NCBI GenBank assembly: GCA_029781975.1
Contig: JAKOVQ010000014.1
Location: 62,001 to 126,000, forward strand
DNA: 64,000 nucleotides
Direction: 5' to 3'
From: Acidobacteriota bacterium
GTDB lineage: Bacteria; Acidobacteriota; Thermoanaerobaculia; UBA5066
The position numbers were made by a program, and so were the translations under genes. The notes beneath the pieces are model-generated. The model saw only the letters and a list, made by a program, of their open reading frames with translations, searched no databases and was not told the DNA's origin. Shown piece after piece: positions 45,668 to 53,880 of the stretch; within the stretch, counting starts at the first letter, position 1; the number at the start of each line of letters is the position of its first letter.

Positions 45668-46603
45668 CTACCTGCCCGGGTCGCCGGCCCCGACGCGTTG
45701 CTGGAGCGCCGCGATCGCCTGCAGGGCCCGGGCCTCGAGGAGCGGGCCGGCGCCGTCGAGGAGGTCGAAGGTCCGCTCCAGGTCGTCCTTCGTCCCGAGC
45801 CGGCCGACCAGGAGGATCGCTTCCCCGCGGACGGCCTCCGACCAGCCGGAGTCGGCCGCGACCCTCCGCGCGAAGGCGAGGAGGTCGTCGCCGGGCCCGG
45901 CGTCCATCCGGAGGAACGTCTGAAGGACGAAGCCGGGGAGACCGGCAGCAGCCGACGGCGGGGTCACGTCCGCCTCGACCGCCGCGAGCGCGCGTTGGAG
46001 GTCCGCCCGCGCCGCCTGCAGCCTCCCCAGCTCCGCACCCTGCTGCGACGGATCGGCCGCCCGGCGCCTGACCTCGTCCTCCGCGGCCTCGAAGGCGCCC
46101 GCGAAGGTCCGGTCGTAGAGGTCGCCGGGAGGTCCCGGGGCCCGGAGGCGCTCCGCCACAGGGACCGAGTCGAAGCGCCGGACGAGCTCGGGGACCGCCC
46201 GGGGGCCGAAGGAGGCGAGCGCCTTCGACAGCGCCTCGCGCTCCGCGCCGTCGCGCAGGACCGCCGGCCGCTCGTCGAGCACCCGGAGGAGCTGGCCGAG
46301 GGCCTCGTCCGAGCCGAGCGAGCGGAGGGCGGCGATCCCCTGCACCGTCACCTCCCGGCTCTTCGAGCTCCTCACGGCCGCGCCGAGGCGCTCGACGCCC
46401 GGGGCCGGCGGCGTGACGAGGCTCGACCGGAGCGCCAGAGAGAGCGGCGTCTCGTGCGGCCTCACCTCGACCCGGGCCGCGGCCCAGAGGGCGGCGACCG
46501 GCACCACGAGGCCGCCGACGACGAACTTGACGAATCGCGAGCGGGCGTCGGCCCGGTTGAGGAGCTGCCCCCGTCCGCGCCTCCGCCGGCGAGCGAGCGT
46601 CAT
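45668..46603 (-). CDS. HEAT-like membrane protein; N-terminus probably longer
   Basis: From the ATG at 46603 the protein has 311 residues: one membrane helix (FVVGGLVVPVAALWAAA, about 28-44) and an alpha-helical repeat region of HEAT type. The same frame continues upstream with two convincing membrane helices (GFLLELVLPTALGGAALLFL and GLVVFGVLLLALSLALSI) to about 46858 without any ATG, GTG or TTG. The likely real N-terminus reads ITDNPSSPDPP, where the codon before TDN is ATC (46858-46856). So it either uses a non-standard start or lost its start codon. Function unknown. Confidence 0.7.
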   Translation of the reverse strand: MTLARRRRRGRGQLLNRADARSRFVKFVVGGLVVPVAALWAAARVEVRPHETPLSLALRSSLVTPPAPGVERLGAAVRSSKSREVTVQGIAALRSLGSDEALGQLLRVLDERPAVLRDGAEREALSKALASFGPRAVPELVRRFDSVPVAERLRAPGPPGDLYDRTFAGAFEAAEDEVRRRAADPSQQGAELGRLQAARADLQRALAAVEADVTPPSAAAGLPGFVLQTFLRMDAGPGDDLLAFARRVAADSGWSEAVRGEAILLVGRLGTKDDLERTFDLLDGAGPLLEARALQAIAALQQRVGAGDPGR

Positions 46604-46882
46604 CCTGTCGATCGAGATGCTCAGGGCCAGCGAGAGCGCGAGGAGGAGGACGCCGAAGACGACGAGGCCGGGGACGGTTCGCGGGTCCCAGAAGCGGAGG
46701 CGTCCCGCGAGGAAGAGGAGGGCCGCCCCGCCGAGCGCGGTCGGGAGGACCAGCTCGAGGAGGAAGCCGGCGAGGCCGAGCGTCCGGCCGGGGAGCGCCG
46801 GCGGCCCCGACGAGGCCGGCCGGGCTGGAGGGTCGGGGGAGGAGGGGTTGTCCGTGATCGGTGCGGCCTCGGCTCGCGGCCG

Positions 46883-46888
46883 ATTGTA
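46883..46888 (-). promoter_or_regulatory. -10-like element upstream of the HEAT-like gene
   Basis: TACAAT on the minus strand lies 24 bases before the ATC codon at 46858, placing a transcript start near 46875. This favours translation starting near 46858 over the ATG at 46603. Confidence 0.35.
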
Positions 46889-46926
46889 ATCAACGGCGCG
46901 GGGCTGCCCCTCGTCGCCGCGGGACT

Positions 46927-46955
46927 TTGCCGCGCCGATACGGACTTCCTATCCT
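46927..46955 (+). promoter_or_regulatory. Sigma-70-type promoter for the N-acyl synthase gene
   Basis: TTGCCG (46927-46932), a 17-base spacer and TATCCT (46950-46955). Start near 46962, with a leader of about 50 bases containing AGGAG. Confidence 0.55.
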
Positions 46956-47012
46956 GCCGCGCGTGCGGGAGCGGGCCGCCCCGCGATCCGGCCCGCCCGG
47001 ACAGGAGACGTG

Positions 47013-48158
47013 ATGCTCGAGAGATGGCTGCGCGGGATCGAGCGGGTCCACCGCGCCGGCACCCGCGGGGAGCGGGAGGCGATCTACCGGTTCCGTTACG
47101 GCGTCTACGTCGAGGAGCTCAAGCGCGCGATCGGAGGGGTGGACCACCGCCGACGCATGGTGTGCGACGCGGACGACGAGGAGCCGTGGTCGACTCACCT
47201 GTACGTCGGGAGCCCGGACGCGGTCGCCGGCGCGGTCCGCATCCGGGTGTGGGAGCCCGGCCGGGTGCCGCCCGCCGACGCCGACACGCTCTCCCTCGAC
47301 CTCTTCCCGAACGCCGCGGAGCTGAGGATCAGCGAGATCGGACGGTTCATGATCCGGCCGACGATGCGCGGGCGCCTGCTCCTGCCGGCGCTCGCCCACG
47401 CCGGGTACGACCTCCTGGCCGGGGAGAAGGCGGCGGACCTGGCGTTCTGCACCTGCCGGCCCGGCCTCGTCGGCTACTACCGCCGCCTCGGCGCGCGCCC
47501 CTACGGGGGGCGGACCGTCGCCGCGCCCGAAGGGCTGGAGGTCCCGCTGGTGTCGGTGCTCTCGGACGAGGCCACGTTCCGGAGGATGGGCTCGCCGATG
47601 GCCCCGCTCGTGAAGCGCCACTTCGGAAGGGGGAAGCGGCCGCCGGTCGACTCGGCCCCCTTCGCTCACCTGTTTCGCGACGACGACCGGAGCGTCGAGA
47701 CCGACCCGGGGGCCATCTGGAAGGAGCTGGAGTCGCGCCTCCTCCAGCCGGGCGAGGGGCCGCAGACTTTCTTCGAGGCGCTGGGCGAGGACGTGACGCG
47801 GCGGCTCTCGGAGTACGGCGTCGTCCTCTCGACGCCTCCGGGCACCCTCGTCACGCGCGAAGGCCACGCGGAGAAGGAGCTCTTCGTGGTCTTCGAGGGC
47901 GAGTACGAGGTCCGCGCCGGAGGGCGCAAGCTGGCGCGGCTCGGCAGGGGCGCGGTGTTCGGGGAGGTCGGGTTCTTCCGCGACACGGGCGTTCGCTCGG
48001 CGTCCGTCCACGCCGTGAGCGGCGGGAGGGTCCTCGTCCTCTCGCGCAAGTTCCTGAAGGAGCTCGCCGGGCGCGACGCCGAGGCCGCCCACGCCGTCCT
48101 CTTCCAGCTCGGACGGCTGCTCGCGGAGCGTCTCGCCCAGGCGACGGCGCACGCGTAG
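47013..48158 (+). CDS. N-acyl amino-acid synthase-like acyltransferase fused to a cyclic-nucleotide-binding domain
   Basis: A 381-residue fusion. The first 250 residues resemble FeeM-type N-acyl amino-acid synthases and PEP-CTERM-associated N-acyltransferases in the GNAT fold. REAIYRFRYGVYVEELKR is the hallmark N-terminal helix-strand, then AVRIRVWEPG, SEIGRFMIRPTMRG and FCTCRPGLVGYYRRLGARPYGG. Residues about 265-375 are a cyclic-nucleotide-binding domain with GHAEKELFVVFEGEYEVRAGG and an intact phosphate-binding loop FGEVGFFRDTGVRSASV. The enzyme half probably transfers a fatty acyl chain to an amino acid, and the other half may gate it by cAMP or cGMP. The ATG at 47013 follows AGGAG by five bases; a GTG directly before it is the alternative. 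Confidence 0.82.
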   Translation: MLERWLRGIERVHRAGTRGEREAIYRFRYGVYVEELKRAIGGVDHRRRMVCDADDEEPWSTHLYVGSPDAVAGAVRIRVWEPGRVPPADADTLSLDLFPNAAELRISEIGRFMIRPTMRGRLLLPALAHAGYDLLAGEKAADLAFCTCRPGLVGYYRRLGARPYGGRTVAAPEGLEVPLVSVLSDEATFRRMGSPMAPLVKRHFGRGKRPPVDSAPFAHLFRDDDRSVETDPGAIWKELESRLLQPGEGPQTFFEALGEDVTRRLSEYGVVLSTPPGTLVTREGHAEKELFVVFEGEYEVRAGGRKLARLGRGAVFGEVGFFRDTGVRSASVHAVSGGRVLVLSRKFLKELAGRDAEAAHAVLFQLGRLLAERLAQATAHA

Positions 48159-48191
48159 ACGGCGCCGCGCGGACCATCCGCGCGGCGCCGT
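48159..48191. terminator. Perfect 15-base hairpin between convergent genes
   Basis: ACGGCGCCGCGCGGA (48159-48173), loop CCA, TCCGCGCGGCGCCGT (48177-48191). It starts at the base after the stop of the acyltransferase gene and faces the end of the LRR gene. Likely a bidirectional terminator, without T-run. Confidence 0.65.
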
Positions 48192-48201
48192 CCCGGTGGC
48201 T

Positions 48202-51200
48202 TCAGAACCCGATGGCGGGGGGCGGCCCGGCGTTCTGCATCACGAAGATCTGCGGGTTCCTCGAGAGGTTGCCGACGACCGTGACGACGCCGACGACCCC
48301 GCCGGCGCCGTCGACGACCTGCGCGGCCACCTCCACGTTCTGGAACGGCCCGGCGCCGAGGCCGAGGCCGGCGTCCCCGAAGACGTCGGAGACCTGGTAG
48401 TAGGCGTTCGCGGGGATGTCGAGGAGCTTTTCGGCGAGGAGCTGCCCCGTCGGCGAGTAGGCCCGGAGCCGCACCGAGGCGGGCTGGCCCGACGTCTCGA
48501 CCAGGATCAGGTTCGTCCGCTTCACGACGCTCTTCTCCGAGCCCGCGAAGCGCGTCTCCGCCGTCCCGAGCTGCATCACGGCCCCCGAGGTCGTCAGGAA
48601 GCCGCTCACCTGGGCGCTGTTGAGCCCCTTCGCGGGATCGGAGGGGTCGACCAGGGTCGAGATCGTCGCCACGGCCGTGACGTTCGCCACGTCCCCGGTG
48701 ACCTCGAGCCAGCCGCGCGACGGGACCGTGACCCCGAGGACGTTCGTGATGAAGTCCCGGGCGAGCGCCTGGTCGAGGGCGCGGCGCCCCGGCAGCTGCA
48801 GCGTCCCGGTCGCGACCTTCGAGCTCCCGTCGGTCAGGTCGGTGTAGTGGTAGGTCAGGCTCAGGTTCGCGGGGGTCGCGAGGCCGTTCACGACGTTCAG
48901 CCCGGTGAGGTACTGCGTGCCGTTCGCGCCGGTCGCCTTCACGAGGGTGGGGACGACGAAGGCGAGCGGCGAGGCGTCGGCCGGACGGACGCGCGCGGCC
49001 GGGGCCGGCGCGGAGGCGGGGAGCGGGAGACCGCTCACCGCGCTGAAGGAGTTCGAGCGGTTGTCGAGGACCGTGGCGACCGCGGCGAGACGGCCCGTCC
49101 CGGAGGTCACCGAGACCTCGAGCCAGCCTCCCGTGACGGTCTGCCCGGGGGCGATGACCTGGACGATGCGGTTGATCTGCACCTGGCCGTAGGGAGGGAC
49201 GTTGGCCGTCGTGGAGCCGAGGAGCGCGCCCGCCGGGGCGTAGAGGTCGACCTTCGCGCCGACGGCCGCCCCGGAGGTCTCCGCGAGGACGAGGTTGCAG
49301 CGGTTGGCCGCGTCGTCGCTGATGCCGGGGAGGACGAGCGGCGGGCCGTCCTTCACCGCCCCCGCGCCGGAAGCCAGGGCGGGGATCTCCGTGCCGAAGC
49401 CGAGGGCCGGGTCTCCGCCGGTGACCGAATCGACGGTCGTCCGGAGGCTCAGCCCAGCGGCCGCCGGGCTCCGGAGCTCCACCTGCCCGGAGCCCGTGGT
49501 CTGGAAGACCGACCCCAGGAGGTCCGCGAGCCGGACGGTCTGCCCGGGCCCGATGGTCGACTGGGCCTCCAGGACGCCGGTTCCGGTCAGGCCGTCCTCG
49601 TCCCTGGGGGTGAAGAACGCCGCCACCGGCGCGTCCGTCGCGCCGAGGTTCCGGAGCCACCCGTCACCGGAGAAGACGGCCCCGTTCCCCCCCTCGGTCT
49701 TCGCGGTCGTCGGGACGAGGAAGCCCGAAACGGGGGCCGACGAGGCCAGGGACCGGATCGACAGGCCGCTCCGGGCGCCGGCGCCGGACGAGAGCGTCCA
49801 GCTCTCCTGGTCGATCACCTCGACGACGGCGGCGTCCTCGGGGTTGCCGCCGACGGGGGCGAAGGTCACGAGCGCCCGCAGCGGCGGCCCGCCGTCCGCG
49901 GTGGCGCGGCGGCTCCGGTCGACGGAGAGGCTGATCGTCACCTGGCCGCTTTCCGGGAGGGGCTGCGACAGCTCGTTCGACAGGACGAGCCAGCTCCCCC
50001 CGGGGCCGATCGTCGGGGCGAGGTAGAGCGGCCCGCTCCCCGCGACGTGCGGGACGGTCAGCGTCAGCGTCTGCGGCGCGGGCGTCTCCCCCTTCGGAGC
50101 GAGGAAGAGGATCGAGGTGGCGCTCGCGTGGACCTTGCTCCCCGCGTGGGAGCCGGGCGGGATCGGGACGCTCGTGACGGTGAGGGCTCCCTGGGTCGAG
50201 AGGCTCTCGTTCCCCCACGTGCCGACGAGGAGACCCTCCGCCACGCCGGGAGACGCGACCGCGTCGGCGTGGACCGAGAGGGTCACGGTCCCCTTGGCGC
50301 CGGGAGCCAGCGTCAGGGCGGCAGGCGAGACGTCGAAGAGGCCGCCGCGCGCCGAGAAGGAGATCGACCCGGCGGTCGCGCCGACGTTCTTCACCTCCAC
50401 CTCGGCCGTCGGCGGGGCATCCCCCGCGGCCACGATCCAGGCCGGGCTCGAGCGGGTGAAGGCGAACGTCGTCGGCGCCAGGGCGACGGTGAAGCGGAGG
50501 GGGGCGCTGTCGGACCCGACGCTCCCGCAGGAGCTGAGGGCCCGGACGCGGACGTAGAGGTCGTAGGGGGCGTCGGCCCGCGGCGCCGTCAGGACGGCGG
50601 CCGCCGCCGCGGTCTCGAGGGTCGACTCGAGCGTCGAGAAGTCCGGTCCGCGCGACGTCTCCACCACGAAGGTGCTCCCGGCCGGGACGCTCGCCGGGAC
50701 GGTCCAGGTCACGAGGAAGCTCTGGCCGCCGTTCACGGCCGTCGTCGCCGTGGAGAGGACGGGCGCGTCGGGAGGCGGGCACCCGCTGCCGGCGGTGGTG
50801 AAGGACGCCGTCGCGCTCGGTCCGCTCGTGAGGGTGCTCTGGTTCTGGGGCCCCGCGAGCGTCGTCGTCCGGACGTTGAAGTAGTAGGTGGTCCCCGGCG
50901 CGAGGCCCGCGACGAGGAGCGAGCCGTCGCTCTTGCTGGCCGTCTGGCCGGCGGGCTGGAACGGGCCGTCGGGGCTCGTGGAGGTGAAGACCTCGTAGAA
51001 CCCGGGGTCGTCCATGTACGGGATCCGCTTCCACGAGACCCTCGCGTCCGTGGCGGAGAGGACAGGGACGGCCAGGTCCGTCGGGGCGACGGTCTGCGTG
51101 AGGCGGAAGTCCTGCGGGAAGCTCGGGACCAGGGGGGCTCGCGCCCCCACCTGCCCGCCGCACTGGTGCTGGTTCACGAAGTCGACCCGGGCCTGGTTGG

Positions 51201-51822
51201 GCTCCGAGATCATGTTGTAGTCGATCGAGATGCAGCTCTCGACGAGCGTCGTGAAGGAGGGCGGGATCCCGCCGGAGAGCTGGTTCGACGAGACGTCGAT
51301 CCAGTAGAGCGACGTGCCGGTCACGTCCGGGAGCGGGCCGCTCAGCCTGTTGTCGGAGGCCGAGAAGTAGGAGAGGGACGAGAGGCCCGCGAGAGTCGGG
51401 ATGGTCCCCGTCAGCCGGTTGCTCCCGACGTAGAAGTAGCTGAGGAAGGGGAGTCCCGTGAGCTTCGGGATGCTTCCCGTCAACCGGTTGCTCGAGACGT
51501 CGAACGAAGAGAGCTGGGGCAGGCGGGTGAGCGCGCCCGGGAGGGTCCCCGTCAGGCGGTTGTTCCAGAGGCTGATCCCGTTGACGAAGGGACTGTCGTT
51601 GATGTAGGTGCAGGAGACGCCGTACCACGAGCACTCGGTCCCGGCGGGGCCGTTCCAGCCGGTCTGGTTCGTCCAGCCCGGGCCGTTCGTGCTGGCGTAG
51701 AGGTCCAGCAGGTACTGGCGCTCCGTGGCCGGGATCTGGGATTGGGCGGTCGCCGGAAGCGCCGAGAGAGCCAGGGCGGCTGCGAGGGCGGAGCCCAGGA
51801 GCCGGGGAGACCTCATGTGCAT
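48202..51822 (-). CDS. Large secreted LRR and fibronectin-like surface protein
   Basis: A 1206-residue exported protein. Signal peptide (LLGSALAAALALSALPATA), then a plant-type leucine-rich-repeat region (about 25-220) with an N-cap (LYASTNGPGWTNQTGW, CSWYGVSC) and repeats such as SNRLTGSIP. Two fibronectin-III-like domains follow (about 240-450). Then an ASPM/SPD-2-like beta domain (AEVEVKNVGATAGSISFS) and a series of modules like those of the carboxylesterase at 31-34 kb (RTNLILVETSG; NRCNLVLAETSG). No catalytic residues. Probably a surface adhesion or matrix protein. The ATG at 51822 follows AAAGGAG. Confidence 0.9.
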   Translation of the reverse strand: MHMRSPRLLGSALAAALALSALPATAQSQIPATERQYLLDLYASTNGPGWTNQTGWNGPAGTECSWYGVSCTYINDSPFVNGISLWNNRLTGTLPGALTRLPQLSSFDVSSNRLTGSIPKLTGLPFLSYFYVGSNRLTGTIPTLAGLSSLSYFSASDNRLSGPLPDVTGTSLYWIDVSSNQLSGGIPPSFTTLVESCISIDYNMISEPNQARVDFVNQHQCGGQVGARAPLVPSFPQDFRLTQTVAPTDLAVPVLSATDARVSWKRIPYMDDPGFYEVFTSTSPDGPFQPAGQTASKSDGSLLVAGLAPGTTYYFNVRTTTLAGPQNQSTLTSGPSATASFTTAGSGCPPPDAPVLSTATTAVNGGQSFLVTWTVPASVPAGSTFVVETSRGPDFSTLESTLETAAAAAVLTAPRADAPYDLYVRVRALSSCGSVGSDSAPLRFTVALAPTTFAFTRSSPAWIVAAGDAPPTAEVEVKNVGATAGSISFSARGGLFDVSPAALTLAPGAKGTVTLSVHADAVASPGVAEGLLVGTWGNESLSTQGALTVTSVPIPPGSHAGSKVHASATSILFLAPKGETPAPQTLTLTVPHVAGSGPLYLAPTIGPGGSWLVLSNELSQPLPESGQVTISLSVDRSRRATADGGPPLRALVTFAPVGGNPEDAAVVEVIDQESWTLSSGAGARSGLSIRSLASSAPVSGFLVPTTAKTEGGNGAVFSGDGWLRNLGATDAPVAAFFTPRDEDGLTGTGVLEAQSTIGPGQTVRLADLLGSVFQTTGSGQVELRSPAAAGLSLRTTVDSVTGGDPALGFGTEIPALASGAGAVKDGPPLVLPGISDDAANRCNLVLAETSGAAVGAKVDLYAPAGALLGSTTANVPPYGQVQINRIVQVIAPGQTVTGGWLEVSVTSGTGRLAAVATVLDNRSNSFSAVSGLPLPASAPAPAARVRPADASPLAFVVPTLVKATGANGTQYLTGLNVVNGLATPANLSLTYHYTDLTDGSSKVATGTLQLPGRRALDQALARDFITNVLGVTVPSRGWLEVTGDVANVTAVATISTLVDPSDPAKGLNSAQVSGFLTTSGAVMQLGTAETRFAGSEKSVVKRTNLILVETSGQPASVRLRAYSPTGQLLAEKLLDIPANAYYQVSDVFGDAGLGLGAGPFQNVEVAAQVVDGAGGVVGVVTVVGNLSRNPQIFVMQNAGPPPAIGF

Positions 51823-51872
51823 GGCAACTCCTTTCACACGCAGCCCAGCCCCCCTCCGGATTCCTGCCGGTC

Positions 51873-51975: not shown

Positions 51976-53880
51976 TCAGATCCTCGTGTCGGTGGCGTAC
52001 CTCTCGGCGATACCGTCGAGGAGGCGCGAGAGGAGGCGGCAGATCCCCTTCAGGGTGCTCCGCTCGAGGGAGCTCAGCTGCCGGGGGTCGACGTGGTTGT
52101 CCGGCTCCAGGTCCATCGCGATCTGGTCGTGCTGGTGCCGGATCCTCAGCAGGGAGACGAACTCGAACGCGTGCGTGAGGTCGTCCGCCGTCGCCTGCGC
52201 GAGCCGGCCCGCGGACCTCAGCGCGGCGATTCGCCCGGTCGTGGAGGTCTCGGCGAGGTTGCTCTCGAACCCGAGGAGCCGCACGACGTTCACGAGGGGC
52301 GTGAGGCAGCATCGCTTCAGGTCGATCTGGTTCGCGTGGTCGCCCCCCTTCTCCATCTGGAGGGTGCCGAAGAGGCCGAGCGGGGGGCGGTAGTCGACGG
52401 CCTGGCAGGCGACCGCCTTGAGGAAGAACGACTGCCCTTCGAGCGAGCGGTGCAGGTGGAGCTTCAGCTCCGCGGCGAGGCGCAGGTCGCCGTGGAGCCC
52501 GCGGAAGTCGAAGAGGTTGAGCGCTCCCGCCAGCGCCGCCTCGTCGGGCGTGCCGATCCAGCCGCTGAACGTCCTCTTCCACCGGGCGAGCGGGGCGCGC
52601 CATTCCGGGTTGGTGGCCATGAAGCCTCCCCGGCAGAGGGCGAAGCCGCACCTGAGGAAGGCGTCGACGACGAGCTCGGCGAGCCTGCCGAAGTACTCCG
52701 CGGCCGCCTGCGCCTCCTCGTCGTTCCGCGGGTCGGCGTGGACGATGGCGTTGTCCTGGTCGGTCTTGAAGGTCTGCTCCCTCCGGCCCGCGCTCCCGTA
52801 GACGATCCAGCAGAAGGGGACGGGCGGGGGGCCCAGCGTCTCGAGGGCGAGCTCGAGGATCCGGTGCTCGAGGCGGTCGTTCACCGCCGAGATCACGCGG
52901 ATGACGCTGCCGGCCCCGGCCCCCTCGCGCAGGAGGAGGGAGACGAGCCCCCGGACCCTCCGGGCCGAGGCCGCGAGGCCTTCCACGGTGGTCCGCCCCT
53001 CGATCTCCCGGGCGAGGACGAGCGGCGACGTCCCCTGCAGGACCAGGAAGTCGTGGCAGCTGACGATCCCCGCCAGCCTCCCGCCGTCCATCACCGGCAG
53101 GTGGTCGACCCCGTGGCTCATCATCTTGAGGAGCGCCTCGAAGCAGGAGTCGCGGGCGCCCACCGTGATGAGGGGCGCGCTCATCACCTCGCCGGCCGGC
53201 GTGGAGGGGCTCCGCTGCACCGCGAGGACGCGGTCGCGCAGGTCCGTGGAGGTCACGATCCCGGCCGGGAGCCCGCTCTCGTCGACGACCACCAGCCCGC
53301 CCACGCGCCTCGCGGACATCAGCTGCGCGGCCTCGAGGACGGTGGCGCTCGAGGAGACCGTCTGGACGTCGCGGGTGGCCAGGTACTCCACGGGGGTCGT
53401 GAAGAGGGCGGTCTCCGACCCCTCCCCGATCGCCTCCCGCGCGGGGGAGACCGGGGAGAGCCCCGCCTCCTTCTTCGGGAAGTACGCCGGCAGGAAGTAC
53501 TCCTTCAGCTCGGGATGCCCGTCGAGGAACGCCAGCGCGGCGGCACCGTCGGCCACGTAGCAGACGGTGTCGGTCACGGCCTGCACGGACGTGTCGATGG
53601 GATCGTCCTCGCCCCGGGAGAGGAACCCGAACGACTCCCCCGCCCCGCGGAAGTCGATCACCCGCTCCTGGCCCGTCGGCGTGGTCGCGTAGATCCGGAC
53701 GGTCCCCTCGCGGATGACGTGGAGGGTGCGGCAGGACGGGGCCCCCTGGCGCAGGATGTGGACGCCGGACGGGTAGACGACCATCCTGAGGGACCCGACG
53801 AAGCCGTCGAGCGCCTCGTCGTCCAGCAGCCTGAACGGGGCCTGCTCCCGCAGGAACTCCCGCGCTCCCGTGCCCGGCAT
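51976..53880 (-). CDS. cNMP-CBS-DUF294 signalling nucleotidyltransferase (copy 2)
   Basis: A 634-residue paralogue of the protein at 39-41 kb with the same order: cNMP-like domain (about 10-130), CBS pair (about 165-290), nucleotidyltransferase core with YGSAGRREQTFKTDQDNA, and the DUF294 helical domain. The cNMP loop (SFGFLSRGEDDPIDTSV) again lacks the conserved Glu and Arg. It diverges from the receiver/exonuclease/kinase operon with only 69 bases between, so both are probably controlled together. A TATGAT -10-like box at 53906-53901 overlaps one on the other strand. GAGGAG precedes the ATG at 53880. Confidence 0.92.
   Translation of the reverse strand: MPGTGAREFLREQAPFRLLDDEALDGFVGSLRMVVYPSGVHILRQGAPSCRTLHVIREGTVRIYATTPTGQERVIDFRGAGESFGFLSRGEDDPIDTSVQAVTDTVCYVADGAAALAFLDGHPELKEYFLPAYFPKKEAGLSPVSPAREAIGEGSETALFTTPVEYLATRDVQTVSSSATVLEAAQLMSARRVGGLVVVDESGLPAGIVTSTDLRDRVLAVQRSPSTPAGEVMSAPLITVGARDSCFEALLKMMSHGVDHLPVMDGGRLAGIVSCHDFLVLQGTSPLVLAREIEGRTTVEGLAASARRVRGLVSLLLREGAGAGSVIRVISAVNDRLEHRILELALETLGPPPVPFCWIVYGSAGRREQTFKTDQDNAIVHADPRNDEEAQAAAEYFGRLAELVVDAFLRCGFALCRGGFMATNPEWRAPLARWKRTFSGWIGTPDEAALAGALNLFDFRGLHGDLRLAAELKLHLHRSLEGQSFFLKAVACQAVDYRPPLGLFGTLQMEKGGDHANQIDLKRCCLTPLVNVVRLLGFESNLAETSTTGRIAALRSAGRLAQATADDLTHAFEFVSLLRIRHQHDQIAMDLEPDNHVDPRQLSSLERSTLKGICRLLSRLLDGIAERYATDTRI

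Follow-up and report, generated by a model that had tools for sequence, protein, structure and literature searches.

Can an enzyme of lipid synthesis be placed directly under a cyclic nucleotide by joining it to a sensor domain? The question is raised by a 381-aa protein encoded on the plus strand at 47013..48158 of the window, by which we mean the whole 64,000-nucleotide stretch of an Acidobacteriota contig that was analyzed. By its open reading frame, translation, Pfam matches, and predicted structure, this protein consists of a FeeM-type N-acyltransferase domain and a C-terminal cNMP-binding domain. Many bacteria make N-acyl amino acids and aminolipids, but little is known of how these lipids are controlled, and a conserved fusion of these two parts would put the enzyme directly under cAMP or cGMP, which opens a simple test of lipid control. 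The gene encodes a real, conserved two-domain enzyme, which is most likely an N-acyltransferase under cyclic-mononucleotide control.

The gene and its two domains

The reading frame runs from an ATG at 47013 to a stop codon at 48156-48158 (381 codons), shows the codon-position GC content usual for coding sequence in the window (0.75/0.50/0.96), and is preceded by a probable ribosome-binding site in a CAGGAG region (AGGAG; 47002..47007, plus strand). It has no co-directional flanks, as both the 311-aa gene upstream and the 1211-aa gene downstream lie on the opposite strand. The initial annotation had credited the gene with a good promoter of its own. While TTGCCG-17-TATCCT is indeed found at 46927..46955 (plus strand), "good" was generous, since it matches 4/6 plus 4/6 consensus bases and its total of 8/12 falls below the 9/12 threshold of our promoter scan, which found none for this gene. 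Eleven sites of at least 8/12 lie on the plus strand of the 64-kb window, and this one is the sole start in 46600-47013; as a promoter it is suggestive only, and the consensus scored may not be the promoter type of this phylum.

A perfect 16-bp inverted repeat between the fusion gene and its convergent neighbor (48158..48192, no strand assigned) overlaps the stop codon and likely forms a hairpin, the stretch folding at -41.6 kcal/mol (z -5.55). We rejected it as an intrinsic terminator, since this strong repeat has no T-run and the scan gave no terminator-like site there. The convergent neighbor itself (48202-51837, minus strand) encodes the 1211-aa protein, which is probably secreted and carries leucine-rich repeats and fn3 domains by Pfam. 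Farther along, at 51976-53880 (minus strand), lies a second cNMP-domain protein with a cNMP-CBS-DUF294 nucleotidyltransferase architecture.

The initial annotation described a FeeM-like N-terminal half, for which it quoted the peptide REAIYRFRYGVYVEELKR, and a cNMP C-terminal half. The peptide is present in the translation, and the domain search that the annotation had proposed places both halves above their curated Pfam cut-offs. The FeeM acyltransferase domain (PF21926) covers residues 23-167 (47079..47513, plus strand; E 1.1e-12) with 48.4 bits against a cut-off of 27, and the same stretch was recovered in the genome search; Acetyltransf_5 also matches above its cut-off at residues 27-124 (E 4.2e-7). 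The cNMP-binding domain (PF00027) covers residues 274-353 (47832..48071, plus strand; E 4.6e-12) with 46.2 bits against 27.5. Between them lies a weakly conserved linker (residues 186-250; 47568..47762, plus strand), in which 6 of 65 columns are invariant among the six clade-A sequences aligned (clade A is defined below) and pLDDT drops below 50 at residues 224-235.

An AlphaFold2 model of the protein, built on a seven-row family alignment, reached a mean pLDDT of 77 and a pTM of 0.54, which leaves it uncertain how the two domains are placed relative to each other. Within this predicted model, VIA-align placed residues 7-190 on FeeM (2g0b_C; Z 16.1, rmsd 3.1, 168/184 residues aligned, 13% identity) and matched the AHL synthases TofI, RpaI, and BjaI at Z 14.6, 14.1, and 13.8, respectively. 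Residues ~252-381 were placed on CRP/CAP structures, several of them with cAMP, at Z 15-16, and the best 50 Foldseek rows for the model were all cNMP-domain or CRP-family proteins. General GNAT acetyltransferases equal FeeM as matches (5jph, Z 16.2), and it is therefore Pfam, not the fold alone, that separates the subfamily. The likeness to FeeM thus comprises the predicted fold over 168 residues, the Pfam family, and a glutamate where the catalytic one is presumed to lie, whereas the identity in the structural alignment is low and the 184-residue FeeM chain has no cNMP domain.

Spread of the fusion and conservation of its key residues

All counts of spread come from Acidobacteriota genomes. 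The FeeM-cNMP fusion occurs in 9 of the 148 genomes searched of the class and in 4 of the 14 genomes of the family, a patchy distribution. In a draw of 396 genomes across the phylum, 29 gave FeeM matches, 33 in total; 30 of these matches had loci and were read, and a cNMP domain was found in 5 proteins and absent from the other 25. Seven family members went into the cNMP profile used on these 30, which makes it circular where they are concerned; the independent test is provided by Pfam. Fusions elsewhere in the phylum add four genomes (G212, G384, G408, and G409), of which G408 and G409, the latter with two copies, came from a search of the family of G212; among the seven genomes there, two match in the cNMP part only and one not at all. 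In total, we count 14 fused genes in 13 genomes. A scan of genome contigs recovered three close relatives only, and the single matching record in a plasmid collection covered the cNMP part alone.

In a tree of the acyltransferase domain comprising 33 of 36 proteins (all but L046, L061, and L068), the ten fused proteins that it contains group with one unfused long-branch sequence (support 86/70). Clade A, to which the window protein belongs, is supported at 96/96; the tree covers six of its ten genes, and those of G010, G427, G428, and G442 were assigned to it by similarity and by the glutamate described below. This topology is consistent with, although not proof of, a single old fusion within the sample. 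Among G010, G011, and G012, dN/dS ranges over 0.24-0.29 in the acyltransferase and over 0.15-0.23 in the cNMP part, which indicates purifying selection on both parts in close relatives. The copy in G010 has one in-frame stop, and intact copies exist.

The residues expected of an active enzyme can be located by alignment. In a profile search of the PDB with the family, AHL synthases were the best sequence matches (TofI, 3.1e-12; BjaI, 3.4e-7). The window protein's E108-x-x-R111, a putative catalytic glutamate and a conserved arginine (47334..47345, plus strand), aligns with the E-x-x-R of WELSR in TofI, and D52 and D55 align with the matching acidic pair. E108 is placed via the AHL synthases and not via Glu95 of FeeM, as 2g0b was not among the matches listed in the profile searches with alignments A4 and A6. 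The initial annotation had named missing acyl-CoA/ACP-binding residues as grounds for abandoning its reading; as far as alignment can show, the reading is not refuted, since the window protein has an intact E-x-x-R motif of the AHL-synthase/FeeM type of fold. E108 is kept in all ten clade-A genes (G000, G010, G011, G012, G380, G408, the first copy of G409, G427, G428, and G442). In the sister clade, clade B (G252, G212, G384, and the second copy of G409), the fusion is present with Ile or Thr at the position of E108, and these proteins may perform other chemistry.

On the sensor side, the phosphate-binding cassette of the window protein, G317-E318 ... R328-S329 (47961..47999, plus strand), was located by alignment, reads FGEVGFFRDTGVRSASV, and is complete in its Gly-Glu ... 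Arg-Ser/Thr pattern. All ten proteins aligned in A5 share the Gly-Glu, the Arg ten residues past the cassette Glu is found in all ten clade-A genes, and the Ser/Thr right after that Arg in only seven. These data bear on a rival explanation that we regard as unlikely, namely, that the cNMP-fold domain is no longer a nucleotide sensor and serves as a dimerization or docking module, the acyltransferase being constitutive. CRP-fold domains without cyclic-nucleotide binding are known, CprK for example, and the CprK fold is among the structure matches of our model. The missing Ser/Thr in three clade-A genes points the same way, as does the shortened copy in G380, whose cNMP domain is without part of the barrel and scores 24.9 bits against the Pfam cut-off of 27.5. 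Against this stands the selectivity of the conservation: only 17 of 130 cNMP columns are invariant among the six aligned clade-A sequences, the cassette Gly-Glu and Arg are among them, and no residue of the pattern is missing from the window copy.

Proposed function and its relation to known systems

We hold with moderate confidence that the protein is an N-acyltransferase of the FeeM/AHL-synthase branch that is allosterically set by a cyclic mononucleotide and makes an N-acyl amino acid or a lyso-aminolipid. In this scheme, the acyltransferase, whose branch belongs to the GNAT fold, would acylate an amino acid or a similar small amine at its amine, with acyl-ACP or acyl-CoA as the donor of the fatty acyl group. 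A cyclic mononucleotide, most likely cAMP, would occupy the C-terminal CRP-like domain and set the activity allosterically, its signal reaching the acyltransferase through the ~65-residue linker. The resulting N-acyl amino acid or lyso-aminolipid would serve membrane-lipid remodeling or signaling. The idea of cyclic-nucleotide control over an N-acyltransferase, put forward in the initial annotation, is backed by sequence, predicted fold, conservation, and recurrence across the phylum, whereas we infer the acyl transfer itself, the substrate, the ligand (cAMP or cGMP), the direction of regulation, and the identity and role of the product. The genome to which the window belongs has six Guanylate_cyc matches (class III cyclase domain), one of them marginal, which makes a cyclic nucleotide plausible in this organism.

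How new would such a wiring be? FeeM, as an ACP-dependent synthase, and TyzA are treated in one paper (PMC10404671), and aminolipids in another (PMC11631085). The closest published architecture that we found is that of Nas343 and Nas354, in which, according to the published report (PMC4897644), a FeeM-type domain is followed by a C-terminal PilZ-type c-di-GMP domain. The same paper states that the E103A exchange at the putative active-site glutamate kills Nas354, that the architecture was new at the time, and that no relation between the c-di-GMP domain and activity could be established. Nas343/Nas354 and the window protein share an N-terminal NAS domain, a linker (residues 200-278 in Nas), and a C-terminal second-messenger domain; they differ in that this last domain is PilZ there and a CRP-type cNMP domain here; a search of the window protein up to E 1 gave no match to PilZ. 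A literature search pairing the two domains among open-licence papers found no paper, and within that literature the fusion is one of known parts in a combination for which no paper was found. The initial annotation's claim of a new wiring goes too far and is right only in part, as both the FeeM-PilZ architecture (PMC4897644) and cAMP-controlled cNMP-GNAT enzymes (PMC4964394, PMC5861322) had been published.

The latter enzymes supply a second rival, which we consider improbable: the N-terminal domain might acylate a protein, as MtKat does, so that the output would be protein modification instead of a lipid. According to those two papers (PMC5861322, PMC4964394), cAMP activates MtKat, a cNMP-GNAT protein acetyltransferase, and direct cAMP control is published for MtKat/MtPatA Rv0998 and MSMEG_5458, which likewise join a cNMP domain to a GNAT-fold acyltransferase. 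The equally good match of our model to plain GNAT acetyltransferases such as 5jph would also suit such an activity. However, these published enzymes have the cNMP domain at the N terminus, act on protein lysine, and carry a catalytic domain of another family, whereas the window protein has the opposite order, acyltransferase then cNMP; its sequence similarity to FeeM and the AHL synthases, together with lipid-related neighbors in some relatives, argues further against protein acylation. Least probable is an AHL synthase variant that would use SAM to produce a quorum signal, for although AHL synthases are the best PDB sequence matches and two sister-clade members match Autoind_synth weakly to moderately, we rejected a LuxI identity on the lack of any PF00765 (Autoind_synth) match at E up to 1 in the window protein, and the Trp of TofI "EQLGW", presumably diagnostic for AHL synthases, aligns with non-Trp residues in the family.

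Three other identities were tried and rejected. The ornithine lipid enzyme OlsB model NF052554 gave 17.6 bits against an NCBIfam equivalog cut-off of 350, and the PEP-CTERM/exosortase acyltransferase model TIGR03694 gave 13.1 bits against 111.95. A defense function (Pycsar, from a PADLOC listing) was set aside as well, as the matches cover residues 259-380, the cNMP domain alone, and no defense partner was seen beside the gene in the window.

Gene neighbors and unfused relatives

The least expected part of the finding is a link to cNMP-domain lysophospholipases. In G012 (L078), the fusion is followed after 12 bp, on the same strand, by the gene for a protein that combines two cNMP domains with an NTE P-loop and a patatin domain; this protein is encoded at the corresponding place in G011, likewise on the strand of the fusion. 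The frame at that place in G010 comprises two cNMP domains only, with no patatin domain in the stretch read, and in G442, which belongs to another family than G011 and G012, the fusion and a gene for an NTE-patatin protein converge. A full NTE neighbor is thus present in 3 of 13 genomes, in two arrangements and two families; none was seen in the stretches taken from the other fusion genomes, some of which are short contigs. The genome of the window has one NTE-family gene, located elsewhere and not beside the fusion. NTE-family lysophospholipases (cNMP-NTE_Ploop-patatin) resemble the fusion as lipid enzymes joined to cNMP domains, whereas they are hydrolases with an unrelated catalytic fold.

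We put forward, as a tentative and rather doubtful extension, that in part of the Acidobacteriota two lipid enzymes form a module under the direct switch of one cyclic mononucleotide; the FeeM-cNMP protein would synthesize an N-acyl amino acid or an aminolipid, while the cNMP-NTE-patatin protein would break down phospholipid. If so, a single second messenger would exchange phospholipid for aminolipid with no transcription factor involved. The recurring cNMP-bearing neighbor of lysophospholipase type suggests that membrane lipids are under coordinated posttranslational control in this phylum, for which genetic tools are scarce.

Other neighbors vary among the relatives. Genes for LolA-like and MMPL proteins lie upstream of the fusion in G408 and G409, and a semialdehyde dehydrogenase gene and a PKS/NRPS gene lie downstream of it in G408. 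Genes divergent from the fusion encode TIR-domain proteins in G428 and G427 (L102, 3667-5487; L104, 3-920) or a caspase-domain protein in G380 (L080, 3668-5818), all of them large f11 genomes. Beside the clade-B fusions of G212 and G384 lies a gene for a Haem_oxygenas_2 protein, an iron-containing redox enzyme (L082, 6455-7093; L083, 6647-7276). Directly upstream of those of G252 and G409, a protein of ~300 aa is encoded (L081, 1857-2753; L086, 4990-5958), 54% identical between the two; it matches no Pfam family, and by eye, from a motif, we take it to resemble a shortened adenylate-forming enzyme.

The other FeeM-domain proteins of the Acidobacteriota belong to the same Pfam acyltransferase family, with the domain standing alone or followed by a C-terminal aminotransferase class-V part, and differ from the window protein in having no cNMP domain. 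Seven of them (L042, L045, L048, L050, L053, L056, and L063) continue after the FeeM-type domain for ~330 residues; in L063 this part matches aminotransferase class V in Pfam, and the other six look alike by eye.
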